Positions 11,577 through 21,029 of a DNA stretch of 64,000 bases are shown here, one piece after another. The translations under genes were made by a program, and so were the position numbers. The notes under the pieces are model-generated. The model saw only the letters and a program-made list of their open reading frames with translations. It was not told the DNA's origin and ran no database searches. Numbering within the stretch: position 1 is the first letter of the stretch; every line of letters begins with the position of its first letter. Origin of the DNA: Desulfurococcus amylolyticus Z-533 (GTDB lineage: Archaea > Thermoproteota > Thermoprotei_A > Sulfolobales > Desulfurococcaceae); the NCBI RefSeq assembly GCF_000513855.1, contig NZ_KI911318.1, positions 266,087 to 330,086 of the forward strand, given 5' to 3'.

Positions 11577-11625
11577 TATCTGTAGAGCTATATGAATCCT
11601 TACAAAATCATCTCCCTGACCTCCT

Positions 11626-11645
11626 CCCCGCCCTAAAGGGCGGGG
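11626..11645. repeat. CCCCGCCCT hairpin, IS605-type end or terminator
   Basis: Perfect stem CCCCGCCCT-AA-AGGGCGGGG, followed by CTTTC. This sequence style is familiar from the subterminal hairpins of IS200/IS605-family elements in archaea, and a decayed TnpB tail lies 1.6 kb away. It also sits 50 bases after the lipoate operon, so it could simply end transcription. It marks the left edge of a G+C-rich block. Confidence 0.6.
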
Positions 11646-11669
11646 CTTTCGGTTGTAAAGCAGATAAAG

Positions 11670-13127
11670 CTAAGACGTGATCCACCAGCTATAGCTATTG
11701 CTCCACAAAAGGACGGCCATCGTGACGTTCGTGCTGTCGCCGGTGTTCAGCTCCATGTACATCGAGTGATATACCACCATTGGCAGGTATCCATAAGGCT
11801 TGTTAGGGTCTAAGTATCCAAAGCTACTCGGCACGACCGTAAATAACACATCGTTCAGCCGGTCCTCAGGCCATCCCCCTCTTTCAACTATGTGTCTCAC
11901 TCTGACCATACCTAAATACGGGTCTGTTAAGTCCATCCACGTATAGTATGGCGCGTTTGGCTCTGTAAAACCTGTCGAGTATTCAATAGTAGCAGAAAAG
12001 CCTATGCCTGATGAGATGGTGTAGGTTATTACCCTCTGCGAGCCGACGTTCTTACCCCAGTCGTCCAGCACTTGACCAGGATAGGCGTCAGTCTTCCAGT
12101 GTATTACGGTTTCAAATACTCTTGGGTAGTGGTTGATTGTAGACCGCCCACAAGTGGTCTGGTAACCCTTACCCGAGTGAACAGCATATGCGTAAAACAC
12201 GTGGTACAGAGTGCCGATGGCCGACGTAAAGTTCCCGTAGTAATATCGGATGTAAAATGACTGGTAGCCTGTGAGTTCTCCACACACTCTCCCCCTCGTG
12301 TAGTTTGTGATCCAGCCAACGGTGCCCAGCGGAACCATGCCGCTAGGCCCCTCCTTAATCGACGTTGATGGAACAAGGTCTCTAGGCAAGAGAGGCGCGA
12401 GCCTGGTGAACACGCTGTCGGGTAAGTAGGCCTTCAATACGAAGATCACCACGCTGGCTGCGTTGTTTTCGTCCAGGTTTTCAATTATTACAGTGCCCGG
12501 GGGCCTCGTGTAGTAGGCCACGGCATCCGCGCTAACTACCGCTGGGTGCAGTCTGCAACCACCGGGCTTCTCGCCTTCTCTAGGTTGCCATAGAGCCTCG
12601 TCGCTTGGGTCGCACACTATTACCGGTTGGTAGGTCTTGCCGTAGACCTGTGAGAGTACTTTGAAGACTGAGGCGTGAGCGTCTAGCACTAAATGGTCCC
12701 GCGCCTTTGTATCCTTGTTGACGAGCACGATTATGTAGTTGGAGGCTTTGTCGAGCAGCCTTGTAAGCACGTAGTAGTAGTTTAGGGGCTTGAGTCCCGC
12801 ATCCCGCGTATTGATTACTACGACTGAGTTGTCCTCAAGCTTAGTCGCTCTTGCTAAGCCCTCTTCTAGCGGTATATAGGTGAGCTGTATGCCCAATGAC
12901 TTGAAGAGTCGCTGTACACTACTCGGGATGCTTCCAACAACGTAGAACTTAACTAGGCTGTTTATCCCCAACAAGTCGTAAGACCGCGACCCTCCAGCAA
13001 CCGCGCTACTAAATGTTTGAACGTGGTACCCGTAAAGTACTGGGGCGATTACGAGAACGGAGATCAGCAACGCTGCTGTTAGCGCTACGTGCTCGGCCGG
13101 CTTTTTCAAACGCGGACCCCCTATCAT
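11670..13127 (-). CDS. Hypothetical secreted or membrane-anchored protein
   Basis: A 485-residue protein not recognised. One N-terminal hydrophobic segment (about residues 13-33) suggests secretion or anchoring, and the remainder is hydrophilic, with many Asn-X-Ser/Thr glycosylation sites in its C-terminal half (for example NYTRG, NFTSA, NVTMA) and four scattered cysteines in CDPSD, GGCRL, RVCGE, TTCGR, possible disulfides. Residues 50-160 look like an alternating alpha/beta domain. Base and codon use is much richer in G+C than neighbouring genes. It lies between an IS-like hairpin and a TnpB remnant, so it is probably acquired. ATG at 13127 is the only good start. Confidence 0.6.
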   Translation of the reverse strand: MIGGPRLKKPAEHVALTAALLISVLVIAPVLYGYHVQTFSSAVAGGSRSYDLLGINSLVKFYVVGSIPSSVQRLFKSLGIQLTYIPLEEGLARATKLEDNSVVVINTRDAGLKPLNYYYVLTRLLDKASNYIIVLVNKDTKARDHLVLDAHASVFKVLSQVYGKTYQPVIVCDPSDEALWQPREGEKPGGCRLHPAVVSADAVAYYTRPPGTVIIENLDENNAASVVIFVLKAYLPDSVFTRLAPLLPRDLVPSTSIKEGPSGMVPLGTVGWITNYTRGRVCGELTGYQSFYIRYYYGNFTSAIGTLYHVFYAYAVHSGKGYQTTCGRSTINHYPRVFETVIHWKTDAYPGQVLDDWGKNVGSQRVITYTISSGIGFSATIEYSTGFTEPNAPYYTWMDLTDPYLGMVRVRHIVERGGWPEDRLNDVLFTVVPSSFGYLDPNKPYGYLPMVVYHSMYMELNTGDSTNVTMAVLLWSNSYSWWITS

Positions 13128-13205
13128 ACTATCTTTTTCCCCTTAAAAGCATTGTTCTACCTCTGTCTCAAATTTCCGTGCACCTATTACTAATTTTAGA
13201 TTAAG

Positions 13206-13400
13206 GTGCCTCTAGGCGGCACGGTAAATCCGAGGAACACGTTTAGGCTCCGCCCGGTTCACGGCTCGGAGATCGCCTACGAGAACGGGTCTAGGGTTGG
13301 GAGGTGCACTAGGGGCGGCGAGTACTGGCACAGGGACGTGGTAGCTGTGTGGAACCTACTCAGAGCCCCGCGGGGCGGTGGGCTCGACCGCCGCCAATGA
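13206..13400 (+). pseudogene. Decayed C-terminal fragment of TnpB (IS605/IS607 OrfB)
   Basis: About 64 residues resembling the end of a TnpB RNA-guided nuclease. It contains the region before the zinc finger (VNPRNT), a degenerate finger, and the third RuvC motif HRDVVAVWNLL with its catalytic Asp. Finger cysteines are partly lost: the expected CP pair reads LRPVHG, and the second pair reads CTRGGE, with Gly for Cys. No upstream TnpB sequence remains, because a stop precedes it at once. Together with the hairpin at 11626 it marks the remains of a transposon. The 13.13-13.50 kb stretch holds nothing else I can support. Confidence 0.7.
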
Positions 13401-13501
13401 ACCCACACGGGTACCCAGAGCCCTGTGGGCGAGGCGGATGTCCCTAGATGGGATCACGGACTCGTATAAAATGATTGGAGTGAACATCTAGGGGCAAACG
13501 G

Positions 13502-13984
13502 CTACGAGGCTGTGAGGAAGTCCTGGATCCTCTTTCTTAGCTCCTCAATTCTCTTGATCGTGTTGAAGAGGGGCCTGTGAGCTAGGATACTCATCGATGC
13601 GGCTATAGCTGTTGTCAGCGCGAGGAAGCCTATGATGAAGATGTAGCCGGTGCTCACGAGAGTTGAGGCTGCCTTGCTGGCTTGCGCTATGACAGGGTTT
13701 TCAACGGTGTTTGTCTGGGTCACCGTCATCGTCTGCGTGAGCGTTGAGTTGTGCCTGACCGTGATGGTCTGCGTCAGGGTCGACGTCACCGTGGATGTCA
13801 ATGTGGTTGTGGCGGTCGTCGTCTTCGTGACCGTGAACGTGGTAGTAGTCGGAGGGAACGTGACAATGTTCCCGGAGGGCGGGTTTACTGTGACCCCTTG
13901 GTAGCACGTCCTCGGTGGGGGTAGAAGACAACGATCCAGATACTCGGGGTGTTGGTGACGATCGGATGAAGTAGGAGACACCAT
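13502..13984 (-). pseudogene. Orphan Thr-rich stalk and membrane anchor of a surface protein
   Basis: The frame encodes a roughly 75-residue Thr-rich stretch with repeated TVT/TLT units (residues about 40-100). A strong membrane segment (IFIIGFLALTTAIAASMSI) and a basic tail (RIEELRKRIQDFLTAS) follow. This is the usual C-terminal anchor of large S-layer-associated or substrate-binding proteins in Crenarchaeota, with the Thr stalk probably O-glycosylated. The extracellular domain expected in front is missing. The first 35 residues read out of a junction with unrelated DNA, so I call it a truncated gene. Strong G+C bias fits the acquired block. Confidence 0.55.
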
Positions 13985-14453: not shown

Positions 14454-15062
14454 TTATCCACTGCTTGCCTTATTTACTGGTTTACACGTGTAGAATACAT
14501 CTATGTGGACAGCAACCTCCTTGAAGCATTTGTTTATCGATGAGGGAGGAATAGTGTTATGCTTTAAATGTTTAGAGACCACTATTAACCCGTTTTCCTT
14601 GGTCACCCTAATAAACTCATTAACGGCCTTCTCCTTATCAGCTATATTGCCCCATGTAGTGATCGAGACAACTATATCGATGCTTGAATCCCTAACCGGT
14701 ATCTCCTCAGCGTAACCTACTACTGGTATTACACGGTGATCAATGTTTTTCTCAGCAAGTCTCTCTATCATACCGGTGCTCGGGTCTAAACATATATATC
14801 TCCTATATTTATCGATGTTATTCTCCCCGAGATACTCTAGTAATAGCCCTGTACCGCATCCTGCATCGAGTACCAGGGATGAATCTAGTTTTCCATTAAC
14901 TATTTCAACTAATACACTATACTTACTATACTGCTCGCCGCGATATAGTTCATCATATGATGAAGCTGTTACATTATACTTCACCACATCATCTAAACCT
15001 CTATTCATATCTGAATCACGTAGCATGGCATCGTTCTTTATTTTCTCCCACATAATCCTCAA
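14454..15062 (-). CDS. SAM-dependent methyltransferase
   Basis: Class I methyltransferase of unknown substrate, 202 residues. The SAM-binding motif I is LDAGCGTGLLLEYL (about residues 64-77), motif II ICLDPSTGMIE, and the post-II acidic loop VGYAEEIPVRDSSIDIVVSI is a typical Methyltransf_11 pattern. The TTG start at 15060-15062 overlaps the ancestral nucS TGA (15059-15061) as TTGA, so it was translated from the same mRNA as NucS before that gene was broken. ATG at 15053 is an alternative start. Small-molecule or tRNA substrates are both possible. Confidence 0.82.
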   Translation of the reverse strand: MRIMWEKIKNDAMLRDSDMNRGLDDVVKYNVTASSYDELYRGEQYSKYSVLVEIVNGKLDSSLVLDAGCGTGLLLEYLGENNIDKYRRYICLDPSTGMIERLAEKNIDHRVIPVVGYAEEIPVRDSSIDIVVSITTWGNIADKEKAVNEFIRVTKENGLIVVSKHLKHNTIPPSSINKCFKEVAVHIDVFYTCKPVNKASSG

Positions 15063-15436
15063 ACCTGTTTTCTACCATAATCTAAGATGCTCTTTCTATA
15101 TCCTTTCTTAAGAGCCAGCCTATATAGTTCTCGGAGATCCATGAGTTTATACTCTAGCTGTAGTCTCTACAAAGCCTCTATGGCTGAGGGTGAGAATGAT
15201 GGCGCGACGAGTATACCCCTCGGCCTCCTACCGTATTTTGCCTCATATGATTTCACGTAACCGTATAGCTGGAGAACAGCTTCCCTCGATGCGGGAACCC
15301 TTTTTAACTCGACTATAACTGGGCGGCCATTTCCATCTACCCCATATATATCTGCTTGACCGGAACCAAGCTTCTTCTCATCCTCCAGTATCCTGAAGTT
15401 AGGTTCCACTAGCTCTGGAAGAAGCTCATGAAGAGC
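15059..15436 (-). pseudogene. nucS: C-terminal half of split nucS, with an in-frame amber codon
   Basis: Encodes the RecB-like nuclease domain of NucS (EndoMS), the mismatch endonuclease. Homology starts with HELLPELVEPNF at the left edge of the foreign block and runs through GQADIYGVDGNGRP and VIVELKR, keeping the catalytic Asp, Glu and Lys. After SPSAIEAL a TAG (15167-15169) interrupts. The same frame continues RLQLEYKLMDLRELY and onward to a TGA at 15059 that overlaps the methyltransferase start, which shows the ancestral end. The N-terminal part lies at 20.77-21.03 kb. About 50 central residues appear to be missing. Nonfunctional as a whole gene. Confidence 0.85.
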
Positions 15437-16279
15437 CTAGGCGAGAGTATACCCCCGACAGTCATGGGCCACATGAGCCACTACCAGCCCTCCGACTCTC
15501 TCAGGTACTCCCTCGTAGAGAGGACCTACAGGATGGCCTGGAGCACGACAGCACTACCGTCCATCTTCAAGGCCAGCTCGATGATCATAGTTCTCACCCC
15601 CCTTGAAGCTGAGGAGATGGTCACCATGGGCGCCTCACCGGACTTCATGCACTTGTTCCCAGGAGGCCTCGACGACTTCGCGGAGCTCGTGGACAGGGCT
15701 GATGCGAGGTCTTTCAGGGAGAAGTACGGGATACCCGAGGACGCCAGAGTAGTCGCCTACTTGGGGACTGTCGAGTACAGGAAGAACCCCCTGGCCGTTG
15801 CAAAGATCGCGAGGCATTTCAAGGACAGGCGGGACGTCTTCTTCGTGGTAGCTGGTAGACTGGGAGACCAGTGGGAGGAGGTGAAGAGGGCTGTGAGAGG
15901 CCTGAGGAACATTGTGTTGATAGGGGAGTTGAGGGACGATGAGAAGGTGGTGCTGGTCAAGACCTCGTACCTGAACATCATAATGTCGCTGATGGAGGAC
16001 TTCGGTCTCACACAGCTCGAGTTCATGTACGGCGGGGTCCCAGTGGTGACCTCGGCGGTGTACGGGCAGAAGTGGTTAGTGAGGAACGGGGTAGACGGTG
16101 TACACGTCAACGGCCCCGACGACGTGAACGGCGCGGCGAGCGCTATAGAAGCGCTGTTGAAAGACGAGGAGAAGTGGAAGGAGATGTCGAGAAACGCCCG
16201 CAAGAGAGCGCGTGGGTTCCTTTTCAGTAAGTTAATGAGAGAGCTCGTAGAAAGGGCCAGGGCCGCCCTGGGCAAGTAG
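15428..16279 (+). pseudogene. Glycosyltransferase family 4, N-terminally truncated
   Basis: Encodes the C-terminal donor-binding half of a GT4-type glycosyltransferase: YLGTVEYRKNPLAVAKIARH, VVAGRLGDQWEEV, and the conserved EFMYGGVPVVTSAVYGQKW region corresponding to the E-x7-E nucleotide-sugar motif. The usual N-terminal acceptor domain (roughly the first 90-100 residues) is missing. The open frame begins only three bases or so from the junction with nucS, so its ATG (15428) is fortuitous. The remaining 283 residues are uninterrupted. Unlikely to be active by itself. Confidence 0.7.
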
Positions 16280-16346
16280 CCCCCTTTACTTCCGGGCTAA
16301 CCGTTATTTACTGGGGCGGACAATACAAGCGGGGGGAGGGCATGCT

Positions 16347-16701
16347 TTGAGGAGGACTCTGCTGGTCTTCATCTTGCCGAGCCTAGTGTCGCCAATGGCC
16401 AACATGGTCTATGAGGGTGACAGGAGCGTCAGCGGGGCTTTCCTAGAGTCGCTGAAGACGCCGCAGGTCATGGTCAGCTTGATAGGCCTCGGCGAGTTCG
16501 TGGGGACGTTGCTCAGGTTCCTCAGCGGCCTCCTCGCAACCTACATAGGCTCCTCGGCCGCGCTGTGGGCTCTAACGGTGACGGGCTACGCCGTGACGTG
16601 CCTGAGCATACCCCTCCTCGCGTTCACCATCTCGTGGGGGAGGCCATCCTGCTCTACACCGTGGACAGAGTGGGTAAGGGGCTGAGGACGCCGGCCAGGC
16701 T
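16347..16701 (+). pseudogene. MFS transporter fragment with frameshift
   Basis: The N-terminal three membrane segments of a major facilitator transporter. The intersegment motif between segments 2 and 3 is recognisable as LRFLSGLLATYIGS. The frame then breaks at a run of five Gs (16636-16640): adding one base restores EAILLYTVDRVGKGLRTPAR, a conserved cytoplasmic-loop motif of this MFS group. After about 16701 MFS sequence stops and an unrelated gene lies on the opposite strand. TTG 16347 follows GGGGGGAGG. Substrate unknown. Clearly broken twice. Confidence 0.65.
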
Positions 16702-17031
16702 ACGGCAAACCTCTCTCAGTGTAGCGGACTCGACCACGACGTAGTACTCCTTCCCGCTCGCACCGACCTCCACAGCCCTTAGGAGGGCTCTCAGCTCCTC
16801 CACCGGCATACACTTGAGTAAGTACTTGAGGGCCCGGCTCAACTTATCGAAGTCGGCTGTAGGAGTGAAACGCCTGTACTACCCGCGGAGCGATATGGTC
16901 ACCCTCTTCTGCCCCGTTACCTCCACAGCCGAGACGGGGGCTCGGCAACGAGACGACAAGTAGTCGTGGAGGGCTTTCACGACCAGTTCTTTGGCTTCCG
17001 AGACCAGCTCCTCGCAACACTCCGAGCTCAC
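16654..17031 (-). pseudogene. Unknown gene interrupted by an in-frame amber codon
   Basis: From GTG 17031 the frame reads 50 residues (SSECCEELVSEAKELVV at its start, VTGQKRVTISLRG at its end), meets TAG at 16879-16881, and continues in the same frame with YRRFTPTADFDKLSRALKYL and on to residue about 110. The two halves share the strong G+C codon bias of real genes in this block, which suggests one ancestral protein. The 3' end runs into the MFS fragment and is probably not authentic beyond about 16700. I do not recognise the family. No membrane segment, no known motif. Confidence 0.4.
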
Positions 17032-17120
17032 CGCACACCCCCTCACCCGCTACTACACGGCTAAGCCCTACCCCGGACTCGAGAGCGCGGTGTACATAGC
17101 CGAACGTCTACTACATATTC

Positions 17121-17172
17121 GTTTATATATCCTTCCAATGGTAATTGTTAGGTAGGTTAAACGAAAGGGGTG
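17121..17172 (+). promoter_or_regulatory. nfnAB promoter and ribosome-binding site
   Basis: An AT-rich GTTTATATAT box at 17121-17130 stands out in G+C-rich surroundings, about 26 bases before a predicted start near 17150. A GGGGTG ribosome-binding site at 17167-17172 precedes the ATG at 17178. This places the nfnA start 33 bases inside the longest open frame. Confidence 0.5.
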
Positions 17173-17177
17173 TTAAC

Positions 17178-18002
17178 ATGTTCCGTGTGACAATGAAGGA
17201 AGACCTGAACGAGCAGGACTACTACCTTGAGGTGGAGAGTCCCCACGTCTCCAGGCACTGGAGGCCAGGCCAGTTCGTGATAATCATGACCCACGAGAGG
17301 GGTGAGCGCGTCCCCATATCGGTCGCAACTATTAACGGTGGTAGGGTGGGGATGTTCATTAAGAAGCTAGGAAAGACCTCGGTTGAGCTCTACAGAGATT
17401 TCAAGGTGGGGAGCTCGCTGTACGCTGTAGCGGGCCCTCTAGGTAGGCCCCTGAAGCTGGAGAGCTACGGGACAGTCGTGCTGGCGTCAGACGCTGTCTG
17501 CGGCCACGCCGAGCAGCTGGGTCTCGCCCAGGAGCTCGCCAAGCTGGGCAACAAGGTGATATCGATCCAGACCTTCAAGACCGAGAAGGAGGTGTACCCC
17601 GAGAAGTACTTGGCCAAGAAGTATGTTGACGAGTACTTCATAACTACACTAGACGGCACGGCCGGGTATAAGGGGCACTACATCGACTTACTGAGGGAGC
17701 TCTTGGCTCGCAGGGAGGTGAAGGCCGTCTTCGCCGGGGGTGCGCTGGCCAACCTCAAGAAGCTCGCCGAGGCGACGGCGGGGCTGGACGTGAGGGTCTA
17801 CGCTCTCGTTAGGACGATAATGGTGGACGGGACGGGGATGTGCGGGTCTTGTAGAGTCAGGTACAACGGGGTGATAGCCTACGCGTGTAGAGACGGCCCC
17901 TGGTTTGACGCCAGGCTGGTCGACTGGGACGACGTCCTGAGGAGGGACGCGAGGTTCAAGAAGGTCGAGAAGATCGCACTGGACAAGTACCTGGCGAGGT
18001 GA
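17178..18002 (+). CDS. nfnA: NfnA/SudB-type NAD(P)H-ferredoxin oxidoreductase small subunit
   Basis: FAD and [2Fe-2S] subunit of the cytosolic NADH-dependent ferredoxin:NADP oxidoreductase (also described as sulfide dehydrogenase in Pyrococcus). The FNR-like flavin domain is residues about 1-95, the NAD-binding domain about 96-215, and the C-terminal cluster motif GMCGSCRV with a further Cys in AYACRDGPWFD at about 226-250 holds the [2Fe-2S] centre. Length is normal. ATG 17178 is chosen over TTG 17145 because of its ribosome-binding site. It is followed by nfnB after 6 bases. Intact, unlike most genes in this G+C-rich block. Confidence 0.87.
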   Translation: MFRVTMKEDLNEQDYYLEVESPHVSRHWRPGQFVIIMTHERGERVPISVATINGGRVGMFIKKLGKTSVELYRDFKVGSSLYAVAGPLGRPLKLESYGTVVLASDAVCGHAEQLGLAQELAKLGNKVISIQTFKTEKEVYPEKYLAKKYVDEYFITTLDGTAGYKGHYIDLLRELLARREVKAVFAGGALANLKKLAEATAGLDVRVYALVRTIMVDGTGMCGSCRVRYNGVIAYACRDGPWFDARLVDWDDVLRRDARFKKVEKIALDKYLAR

Positions 18003-18008
18003 GCTGTC

Positions 18009-19430
18009 TTGTCCCGAGTGGTCAAGAAGAGGTTTACACCTAAGGTCCTGCCCGTAAGCGAGAGGCTGAGGAGCTTCGGCGAGGTGGTCTTGGGCTACGA
18101 CTACGAGACTTCTGTTAGAGAGGCCTCGAGGTGCCTCCGCTGCCCCCTCTGGTTCGCCCCATGCTCGAAGGCGTGCCCGTTGAGGGTCAAAGTCCCGGCC
18201 TTCCTAGAGTACATTGTCAAGGGGGACCTCGAGGCGGCCGCCAGGAAGGTCTACGAGGACAACCTCTTCCCCTCCATAACGGGCAGGGTCTGCCCCCAGG
18301 AGTGGTTCTGTGAAGGCAACTGCGTAGTCTCCAAGATAGGCGAGAGCGTCTCCGTCGGCCTCTTAGAGAGGTACGTCGGAGACTACGCGAGGGAGAATGG
18401 ACTGGACGAGAAGATCCTGGCCGAGATGGTCTCTAAGAACAGTGGGGTCAAGGGAAGGGTAGCGGTGGTAGGCTCGGGCCCCGCCGGGCTGTCAGCGGCC
18501 GGCTGGCTTAGGTTGAGAGGTTATGAAGTCGTCGTATACGAGGCCCTCCACAGGCCTGGGGGTGTGCTGGCGTACGGGATACCCGAGTTCAGGTTGCCCA
18601 GGAGCGTCCTAGACCACGAGATCAAGAAGGTCGAGAACCTAGGCGTTGAGATAAGGCTGAACCACGTGGTGGGGAAAACCGTGCTGCTGAGCGAGCTATT
18701 GAGCGAGTACGACGCCGTCTTTATTGGCAGCGGCGCCGGTACACCCAAGCTACTCAACATCCCGGGCGTCGACTTGAACAACATCTACACGGCTAACGAG
18801 TTCCTCACCAGGGTCAACCTGATGAGGGCGCACCTCTTCCCAGAGTGGGACACACCGATCAGCGTCGGGAAGACCACGTTGATAATCGGGGGAGGTAACA
18901 CCGCCATGGACGCGGCGAGGGTAGCTCTGAGACTGGGCAGCAAGCCGGTCGTCGTCTACAGGAGGGACAGGGAGGACATGTTGAAGACGACTAGGAGGGA
19001 CGAGGTGCTGCACGCGGAAGAGGAGGGCGTGGAGTTCAAGTACTACCTGCAGCCGATCGAGTTCCTCGGCGACGAGAACGGCTTCGTTAAGGCTGTGAGG
19101 TTCGAGGTAATGGAGCCCCTCAACGAGCTCGACGAGAGGGGCAAGAAGAAGATCGTCGGGACGGGTAGGTACGTCGAGATCCCCGCGGACACGGTGGTTA
19201 TAGCGATAGGGCTGGAACCCAACAGGTTGCTCATGGAGGAGAGCGGGCTGAGGTTCAACGAGGACGGGACGATAGCCGTAGACGACCACCTCATGATGAG
19301 CCTGCCCGGCGTGTTCGCGGGGGGCGACGCTATAAGAGGCGAGTCGACGGTCGTCGAGGCCATGGCAGACGGGAAGAGGGCTGCGGAAGAGATAGACCTG
19401 TACGTGAGGAGGAAGAAGGGACTAGCGTAG
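18009..19430 (+). CDS. nfnB: NfnB/SudA-type NADPH oxidoreductase large subunit (GltD-like)
   Basis: 473-residue FAD protein of the glutamate-synthase small-subunit family, partner of NfnA for electron bifurcation between NADPH, NADH and ferredoxin. The N-terminal region has the two [4Fe-4S] cysteine sets (CLRCPLWFAPCSKACP and RVCPQEWFCEGNC, residues about 41-105). The FAD motif VVGSGPAGLSAAGWL is near 152, the NADPH motif IIGGGNTAMDAARV near 293, and the closing FAD motif GVFAGGDA near 434. TTG start. Its last 9 bases overlap the DUF84 gene on the other strand. A role in NADPH/ferredoxin balance is well supported, sulfur reduction less so. Confidence 0.87.
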   Translation: MSRVVKKRFTPKVLPVSERLRSFGEVVLGYDYETSVREASRCLRCPLWFAPCSKACPLRVKVPAFLEYIVKGDLEAAARKVYEDNLFPSITGRVCPQEWFCEGNCVVSKIGESVSVGLLERYVGDYARENGLDEKILAEMVSKNSGVKGRVAVVGSGPAGLSAAGWLRLRGYEVVVYEALHRPGGVLAYGIPEFRLPRSVLDHEIKKVENLGVEIRLNHVVGKTVLLSELLSEYDAVFIGSGAGTPKLLNIPGVDLNNIYTANEFLTRVNLMRAHLFPEWDTPISVGKTTLIIGGGNTAMDAARVALRLGSKPVVVYRRDREDMLKTTRRDEVLHAEEEGVEFKYYLQPIEFLGDENGFVKAVRFEVMEPLNELDERGKKKIVGTGRYVEIPADTVVIAIGLEPNRLLMEESGLRFNEDGTIAVDDHLMMSLPGVFAGGDAIRGESTVVEAMADGKRAAEEIDLYVRRKKGLA

Positions 19431-19967
19431 GGCACTTTTCTCGTACAGCTCTCTATTGAGTATTTTTGTCAACACCATCAGGGTGGTCAGCCTCGACAGC
19501 TCGGACCTCACTACGACGTGCCTGGTCAGGAGCGAGATGAAGCCGATCTTCTCCCCTATGTTCTCCGTCTTGTAGAGGTTGTCGACGATCTCCTCCAGCT
19601 CCCTGAACCTCCCTGACAGTATCTCGTCGACGAACCACGTCGGGACTGGGAAGGAGGGGAAGAACCCTAGCGACTCCCCGAGCTCCCTCGAGATGACGTA
19701 CGCGGCCTCGATGTCGAAGTAGGTCGAGCCAAACCTGTAGAAACCCGCCTCGATACCCGTGCTGAAGTCGCAGTCCCCGCTCATCGCCAGCCTCGCCCGC
19801 AGCTCCGCGCCCCTGACGATCACGTCGAGGCCGATCGGCTGTGGCGGCAGGCCGGTCTCCACCTTCACTGCTCTAACGTCGGAGACGGGGGAGTAGCTCT
19901 GGAAGGCGCTCACGACCCCCCGCACCTTAGACGGGTTCACGCTACCTATGTACAGCCTGATCCCCAG
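19422..19967 (-). CDS. Inosine/xanthosine triphosphatase, DUF84 family (acquired copy)
   Basis: Hydrolyses non-canonical purine nucleotides such as ITP and XTP to keep them out of DNA and RNA. Family hallmarks: NPSKVRGV at the N-terminus, PPQPIGLDVIVRGAELRA, GIEAGF, and the TENIGEKIGFISLLT segment. A second family member lies at 31186-31776. The first NTG inside the homologous region is GTG 19940, but the family's opening strand (RLYIGSVNP) lies upstream in the same frame, bounded by TAG at 19971. No ATG/GTG/TTG is available there, only CTG at 19967, so the true start may have been lost. Otherwise intact. Confidence 0.75.
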   Translation of the reverse strand: MGIRLYIGSVNPSKVRGVVSAFQSYSPVSDVRAVKVETGLPPQPIGLDVIVRGAELRARLAMSGDCDFSTGIEAGFYRFGSTYFDIEAAYVISRELGESLGFFPSFPVPTWFVDEILSGRFRELEEIVDNLYKTENIGEKIGFISLLTRHVVVRSELSRLTTLMVLTKILNRELYEKSALR

Positions 19968-19983
19968 ACACTACCACCCGGGG

Positions 19984-20586
19984 TCAGGCGCTCTTAGCCC
20001 TCTCTGCGTAGAAGGCCTTGTCCAGCTCGTAGGCCTTGACAGAGACCTCTCCCGCCCTCCCCGGGAGCACGCTCTTGATAGCCTCGTACACGACGTCGTC
20101 GGCGAAGAGGCGTGCGTGCGCGTTGAAGACCCCCAGCATAACCATGTTAATGGCCCTGGCCGAGCCGGCCCTCACTGCTAGGTCCCTGGCGGGGACCACT
20201 AGGAGCTTCTCGCCCACAACCTCTTTCAGCGACCTTAGGACGCTCTCCATCGCTCAGGCCGGGCTAGGGCTGAGGCTGGCGCTGACCGGCGGCTTGTACT
20301 CGTCGGCTGCGAAGACAACTCCGGTGTCGTGGAGGTACCTCGTAGCTCGCACAGTCTCGAAGAGCTCCAGGCCGATGATGTAGTCCGCCTCGCCCGGACC
20401 GAATATCGGTGACTGGGCGTCCTCACCGACTCTCGCGAAGCTGAGAACGCTGCCGAACCTCTGTGCCATCCCCAGCGTCTCTCCGGTCCTCGCGCTGAGC
20501 CCCTACCTCACAGCGGCCACGGCCATTATCCTCGACAGCGTCAGCCCGCTCTGCCCGCCTACCGAGGATATGAGGATGTTGAACAT
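19984..20586 (-). pseudogene. iorB: Indolepyruvate ferredoxin oxidoreductase beta subunit (iorB), two nonsense codons
   Basis: Beta subunit of the enzyme that oxidises aryl pyruvates from aromatic amino-acid breakdown with ferredoxin. From ATG 20586 one frame of 200 codons reads MFNILISSVGGQSGLTLSRI, TGETLGMAQRFGSVLSF, and so on to RAKSA, the expected size and motif order for IorB. TAG at 20503-20505 and TGA at 20254-20256 interrupt it without any frameshift. Start and end regions are otherwise well preserved, indicating recent decay. The upstream neighbour is the tail of iorA, giving the standard iorAB order. Confidence 0.8.
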
Positions 20587-20591
20587 CCTGC

Positions 20592-21029
20592 TCAAGCCCC
20601 ACCCACCTCGACTATAGCCTTGTACGGGCAGAACCTAGCGCACAGACCGCAGCCTGTGCAGTCGTCCTCCACGATCTTCGCCTTCCCGTCCTCGATGTAG
20701 AGTGTTGGGCAGCCAGTCACGTTGACGCACGCCCTGCAACCCGTGCGCTTGTCCTCTATAACCTCGTCATCGGTCCAGACCTCTATCACTGATGTCTCTG
20801 GTTGCCAGTTAACGGGTGAGTATCCTTGGGGGCGATGTACTAGAACGGAGCCATCCTGCTTTATAATCAGTATCCTCTCACCGTTTCCAAGCCTAGATGC
20901 ACTTCTACCCTCGTACTCAATGCTGCATTCGCCAATAATAATAACTACCCTCCCTTCAACTATGGCCTTCTTAATTACACCGGGTAAAGTATTTAAGTCG
21001 GGTTTTTCCCATACAAGTAGATCAGCCAT
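20592..21029 (-). CDS. Chimeric frame: NucS N-terminal domain fused to IorA ferredoxin tail
   Basis: An intact 145-residue frame made by the right junction of the foreign block. Residues 1 to about 86 are the N-terminal DNA-binding/dimerisation part of NucS (CSIEYEGRSASRLGNGERIL, SPVNWQPETSVIEV). Residues from about 90 are the C-terminal two-cluster ferredoxin domain of IorA (TGCRACVNVTGC, then DCTGCGLCARFCP). The first cysteine of the first cluster is Arg (DKRTGC), so only one [4Fe-4S] site is complete. The native nucS promoter and start remain, so it may be expressed. Function is doubtful; most likely a by-product of the insertion. Confidence 0.7.
   Translation of the reverse strand: MADLLVWEKPDLNTLPGVIKKAIVEGRVVIIIGECSIEYEGRSASRLGNGERILIIKQDGSVLVHRPQGYSPVNWQPETSVIEVWTDDEVIEDKRTGCRACVNVTGCPTLYIEDGKAKIVEDDCTGCGLCARFCPYKAIVEVGGA

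Follow-up and report, generated by a model that had tools for sequence, protein, structure and literature searches.

The nucS locus

The window analyzed here is a stretch of 64,000 nucleotides (positions 266,087-330,086) from the Desulfurococcus amylolyticus Z-533 genome, a single contig of 1,307,099 bp that is 99.8% complete with 0.13% contamination. We define "S2" as the block of Thermogladius-derived DNA that lies between two pieces of nucS, the gene for the mismatch endonuclease NucS, and "S1" as a second Thermogladius patch nearby. The genomes used most for comparison are G001 and G002, both of the same genus as the host ("congeners"), and two of Thermogladius, G048 (the MAG KUA_Bin11) and G021. 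The features of the locus, in window coordinates, are:

11655..13979, no strand: Thermogladius patch S1, 94-97% identical to G021 (250-253 kb) and to G048
15059..15418, minus: nucS 3' fragment, from residue ~143 (NucS_C), with a nonsense TAG at 15167-15169 and the original stop TGA at 15059-15061
15413..20763, no strand: Thermogladius-derived block S2, defined by DNA identity to, and collinearity with, G048 and G021
15413..16279, plus: glycosyltransferase group 1 gene whose 5' part is cut off at the joint, leaving ~286 of ~555 codons
16254..16703, plus: remnant of an MFS transporter gene, with a frameshift near 16637 and an 883-bp deletion
16691..17046, minus: small uncharacterized gene, broken by TAG at 16879-16881
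17178..18002, plus: nfnB-like gene (Nfn small subunit), intact, 274 aa; PRK06222 above cut-off, 5jca_S 3.6e-58
18009..19430, plus: nfnA-like gene (Nfn large subunit, GltA/GltD type), intact, 473 aa; TIGR01316 above cut-off
19422..19940, minus: DUF84 / ITPase-XTPase (NTPase_I-T) gene, open but relaxed (6N:1S)
19984..20601, minus: iorB, broken by TAG at 20503-20505 and TGA at 20254-20256
20592..21029, minus: 145-aa chimeric ORF, an in-frame fusion of NucS residues 1-89 with the IorA C-terminal ferredoxin domain (NCBIfam)
20764..21029, minus: nucS 5' fragment, residues 1-89 (Pfam NucS_N, 8.2e-20)

The original prediction held that nucS is split by a foreign, G+C-rich segment of about 5.3 kb and that both parts face the same direction. 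Profile matches bear this out, since NucS_N and NucS_C flank a 5.35-kb block with a G+C content of 0.60, compared with 0.43 in the native DNA of the window. The split itself stands, and sharper mapping moves the end of the N part from 20785 to about 20764. The NucS_N match on the ORF at 20592-21029 (minus strand) covers residues 27-88 and profile positions 3-64 of 100 only; the NucS_C match on the ORF at 15170-15436 (minus strand; 1.5e-13) contains the motifs GQADIYG and VELKR, from which homology had first been read. Alignment to the intact NucS of the congeners revealed that residues ~90-142 (about 53, close to the 50 predicted) are absent, indicating that sequence was replaced as well as inserted. 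Also as predicted, the nucS frame continues past the TAG for 35 codons to a TGA that adjoins the methyltransferase start.

With the insert, the missing residues and the nonsense codon, the locus does not encode a single continuous NucS polypeptide with an interdomain region and an intact C-terminus. Both domains of NucS/EndoMS (PDB 5gke, 2vld; PF21003 and PF01939) are still detectable in the two host fragments, and an alignment of the congener protein to 5gke spans residues 5-236 of 273. Unlike a working NucS/EndoMS, however, the host gene is split, lacks its middle, carries a nonsense codon and is fused to foreign sequence, and we regard it as a pseudogene rather than a functional member of the family.

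The fragments are no more diverged than intact copies are among congeners, indicating that the loss of nucS is recent relative to the species split. The 5' fragment is 66-68% identical to the congener genes, much as these are to each other; for the fragments together the range is 66-75%, and for G001 against G002 it is 65-72%. The prediction had proposed comparing the locus in relatives, and this found nucS intact in both congeners and the same split in none. The genes to the right of nucS (21211 onward) lie about 45 kb from nucS in G001, which places nucS at a rearrangement boundary between these two species as well.

The chimeric ORF matches both the NCBIfam NucS model (positions 5-105) and IOR_alpha (542-595 of 595). 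Its ferredoxin part comprises 57 residues from the IorA C-terminus and is 95-96% identical to the corresponding Thermogladius sequence; both parent segments are well conserved. We found no sign of function for the 145-aa product; the fusion would be in frame by chance, the odds of this being one in three. This fusion, the decay of S2 and the nearby Thermogladius patch had all been missed by the original prediction.

Origin and decay of the foreign block

Identity of S2 to G048 is 98% across 3.3 kb and 96% across 0.5 kb, too high for a chance match, and to G021 it is 91% and 90%. The G048 contig in turn shares 99% protein identity with JAGDWK010000027, from a Thermogladius sp. MAG. S2 is made up of genes from the Thermogladius chromosome in their original order, with a truncated gene at each end (the glycosyltransferase gene on the left and iorA on the right), and the block is collinear with Thermogladius except for an 883-bp deletion between two 11-bp direct repeats, CGCCGGCCAGG. 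Identity, collinearity, foreign composition and absence from the congeners all identify S2 as a horizontally acquired chromosomal fragment. No further Thermogladius block of at least 85% identity was found in the window between 20.7 and 60.9 kb, and a scan of contigs for close strains gave no match beyond further Thermogladius sequences and distant homologues.

The left joint lies in CTCTGG of the donor, where congener nucS has CTCnGG (a common match of 5-6 bp), and about 2 bp are shared between donor and recipient at the right joint. These short matches, together with the deletion between 11-bp repeats, suggest short-homology joining. Recombination between nucS genes was rejected as the route because the donor's nucS is located elsewhere in its genome.

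Changes in S2 were assigned to branches with G021 as the outgroup and G048 as the sister. On the host branch there are 50 changes, 41 of them GC>AT and six AT>GC, a pattern that differs from that of the G048 branch (7 GC>AT vs 18 AT>GC; p = 7e-7). Some of the host-branch changes may be older than the transfer. Relative to G021, the two stops in iorB arose by CAG>TAG (C>T) and TGG>TGA (G>A).

S1 lies 1.45 kb from S2 and matches a different donor locus. Only ~36 codons at the start of a native metallo-beta-lactamase-fold gene remain beside it, the rest having been replaced by S1; in G001 the gene is intact. S1 also contains a scrap of TnpB at 13224-13497 (both labels are from motifs). S1 is more diverged than S2 (54 changes in 1.57 kb) and has a lower GC>AT bias (35:25, p = 0.001 vs S2), so it probably arrived separately or came from another donor lineage. 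A 43-bp hairpin repeat at 11616-11658, which by resemblance we take to be an IS605-type end, abuts S1, and more than 25 dispersed copies of it occur in G001.

The imported nfn genes

The host has an intact, imported nfnB-nfnA pair, the only complete Nfn pair in its genome, and a wrecked native nfnB/DUF84 cluster elsewhere on the chromosome; both are new findings of this analysis. The two products match both subunits of Nfn (PDB 5jca, 5vj7, 4ylf) end to end and are encoded by neighboring genes. The large subunit carries Fer4_20 and Pyr_redox_2 domains and the small subunit a DHODB-type Fe-S domain, and the nfnA product scores 1.5e-181 against 5vj7 and 1.6e-161 against 5jca (NfnI), though other flavin oxidoreductases with this architecture are also close homologues. 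At 984.6-985.3 kb of the host genome (G000:C1:984640-985300), nfnB residues 7-120 survive in three frames beside a DUF84 scrap with three stops; the gene order is that of the imported cluster, and nfnA is gone. G002 has no complete nfn pair, and the pair in G001 is diverged (41% and 55%).

Host-branch changes in nfnA number 2N:8S (p = 0.04), and the gene looks to be under purifying selection, a weak signal of ten changes. The counts are 4N:4S for nfnB and 6N:1S for DUF84, the latter a sign of relaxed constraint. That the host's sole complete pair is imported, and that its native cluster is ruined, suggests a reason for the retention of S2, which was probably kept for nfnB-nfnA. The simplest order of events would be loss of the native nfn cluster followed by its regain from Thermogladius at the expense of nucS; the opposite sequence, import first and loss of the native cluster afterward, is possible.

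Explanations for the disrupted gene

The explanation we favor, with a probability of roughly 88%, is that nucS was inactivated by horizontal transfer of a piece of Thermogladius chromosome, probably kept for nfnB-nfnA, and that the host would now have no recognizable mismatch repair. A chromosome fragment originally at least 6.2 kb long would have joined illegitimately into nucS, presumably through microhomology, replacing about 160 bp and so removing residues ~90-142. The fragment would then have lost 883 bp between short repeats while its useless genes decayed, and the intact nfnB-nfnA, of the NADH-dependent ferredoxin:NADP oxidoreductase type, may have secured its retention by replacing the host's ruined nfn-DUF84 cluster. 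Counting against this explanation are the thin purifying signal in nfnA and the lower GC>AT bias of S1, by which the two patches differ in history.

The strongest alternative, which we consider possible though doubtful, is that the insertion was neutral, hitting a nucS that was dead or dispensable beforehand, and that S2 persisted for reasons other than its nfn genes. Several relatives in the order do without NucS, the purifying signal in nfnA amounts to ten changes, and nfnB stands at 4N:4S. On the other hand, the only complete Nfn pair in the host has stayed intact beside broken neighbors, its native counterpart is in ruins, and the nucS fragments look constrained until recently.

It is very unlikely that the locus is a chimeric assembly or contamination, in which a read or contig from a co-resident Thermogladius was joined into nucS. 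The 96-98% match of S2 to a Thermogladius metagenome bin is what such an artifact would produce, but S2 has private nonsense codons, the 883-bp deletion and a GC>AT bias missing from the sister Thermogladius branch, and this decay, which is of the recipient lineage, points to long residence in the recipient. The nucS pieces have their own damage, namely the extra nonsense codon and the ~53 residues gone; S1, which is more diverged and derives from a different donor locus, is situated within 1.45 kb; and the genome is a single contig with the low contamination noted above. The assembly error that the prediction had named as one way to be refuted is thus improbable.

Two further proposals can hardly be credited. 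A working split NucS, in which two polypeptides reassemble, would account for the conserved motifs in the C part and the normal identity to congeners, but ~53 interdomain residues are missing, the C part begins in donor sequence and has lost its last ~35 residues to the TAG, the N part ends in ferredoxin sequence of foreign origin, and one conserved glycine is altered. A specialized mobile element with nucS as its target, whether integrative element, IS or virus, would fit the sharp ends and foreign composition of S2, and the presumed IS605-type hairpin and TnpB scrap beside it in S1, but the genes of S2 are all chromosomal in Thermogladius and truncated at both ends, and no integrase or other recombinase, terminal repeats or target-site duplication were found in S2.

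Mismatch repair and mutation spectrum

Profile searches of the host genome returned one NucS_C match, which is the broken copy, and no match to MutS_V. The predicted natural loss of NucS in a cell without MutS-type repair is upheld in this respect, with the qualification that NucS absence is not unique in the order: NucS_C is absent from seven of 45 good genomes, six of which also have no MutS_V (the exception is G057), so cells without either exist. We infer that the host, with neither a second NucS nor MutS, has no recognizable mismatch repair, though another, unrecognized mismatch-repair nuclease may be present. Tandem MutS_V-type genes (~500 aa) occur in two Thermogladius MAGs (G010:C27:6929-8898 and G047:C117:3127-5105), and in neither G021 nor G048.

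NucS occurs without MutS-MutL in 17 of 24 Crenarchaeota surveyed (PMC5290159). Its role in mutation avoidance in the hyperthermophilic members is disputed: deletion of endoMS in Sulfolobus islandicus raised the mutation rate about 1100-fold, mainly through transitions (PMC7736090), whereas in S. acidocaldarius there is reportedly no rise (PMC7736090, PMC8228993). As in the knockouts of S. islandicus (PMC7736090) and Mycobacterium smegmatis (PMC5290159), the gene is lost here from an organism without MutS-MutL; unlike them, the loss is natural, came about through interspecies DNA and is known from sequence alone. The M. tuberculosis NucS variants that were assayed in M. smegmatis (PMC5290159) are likewise natural variation expected to lower repair, whereas the host gene was destroyed when chromosomal DNA of another archaeal genus replaced part of it. 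A literature search, with most subscription journals outside its scope, found no earlier account of an archaeal nucS being disrupted naturally in this way. The locus illustrates how a core repair gene may disappear as a side effect of a DNA transfer that brings back a different lost function. With nucS intact in sister species, a recent natural null of this kind makes it possible to compare mutation rates and spectra directly.

A mutator phenotype of the host is plausible. Only tentatively would we describe this hyperthermophilic lineage as a natural mutator that lives with no mismatch repair at all, S2 being a neutral record of the mutation spectrum that arises when NucS is missing. Transitions make up 88% of the host-branch changes in S2 (38 GC>AT and 6 AT>GC). 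Scaled for base composition, they do not differ significantly from the spectrum of the S. islandicus endoMS deletion (p = 0.11). The pattern is compatible with NucS loss but not diagnostic of it, and may have arisen from AT-biased mutation in a repair-proficient cell. A high share of transitions was rejected as proof of the loss, as the G048 branch also consists of 96% transitions. Broken native genes were sought as a sign of local hypermutation, and this too was rejected: the native genes compared (~1-11.5, 14.1-15.1 and 21.2-23.6 kb of the window) are all free of stops, indicating that there is no mass decay in these parts of the window.
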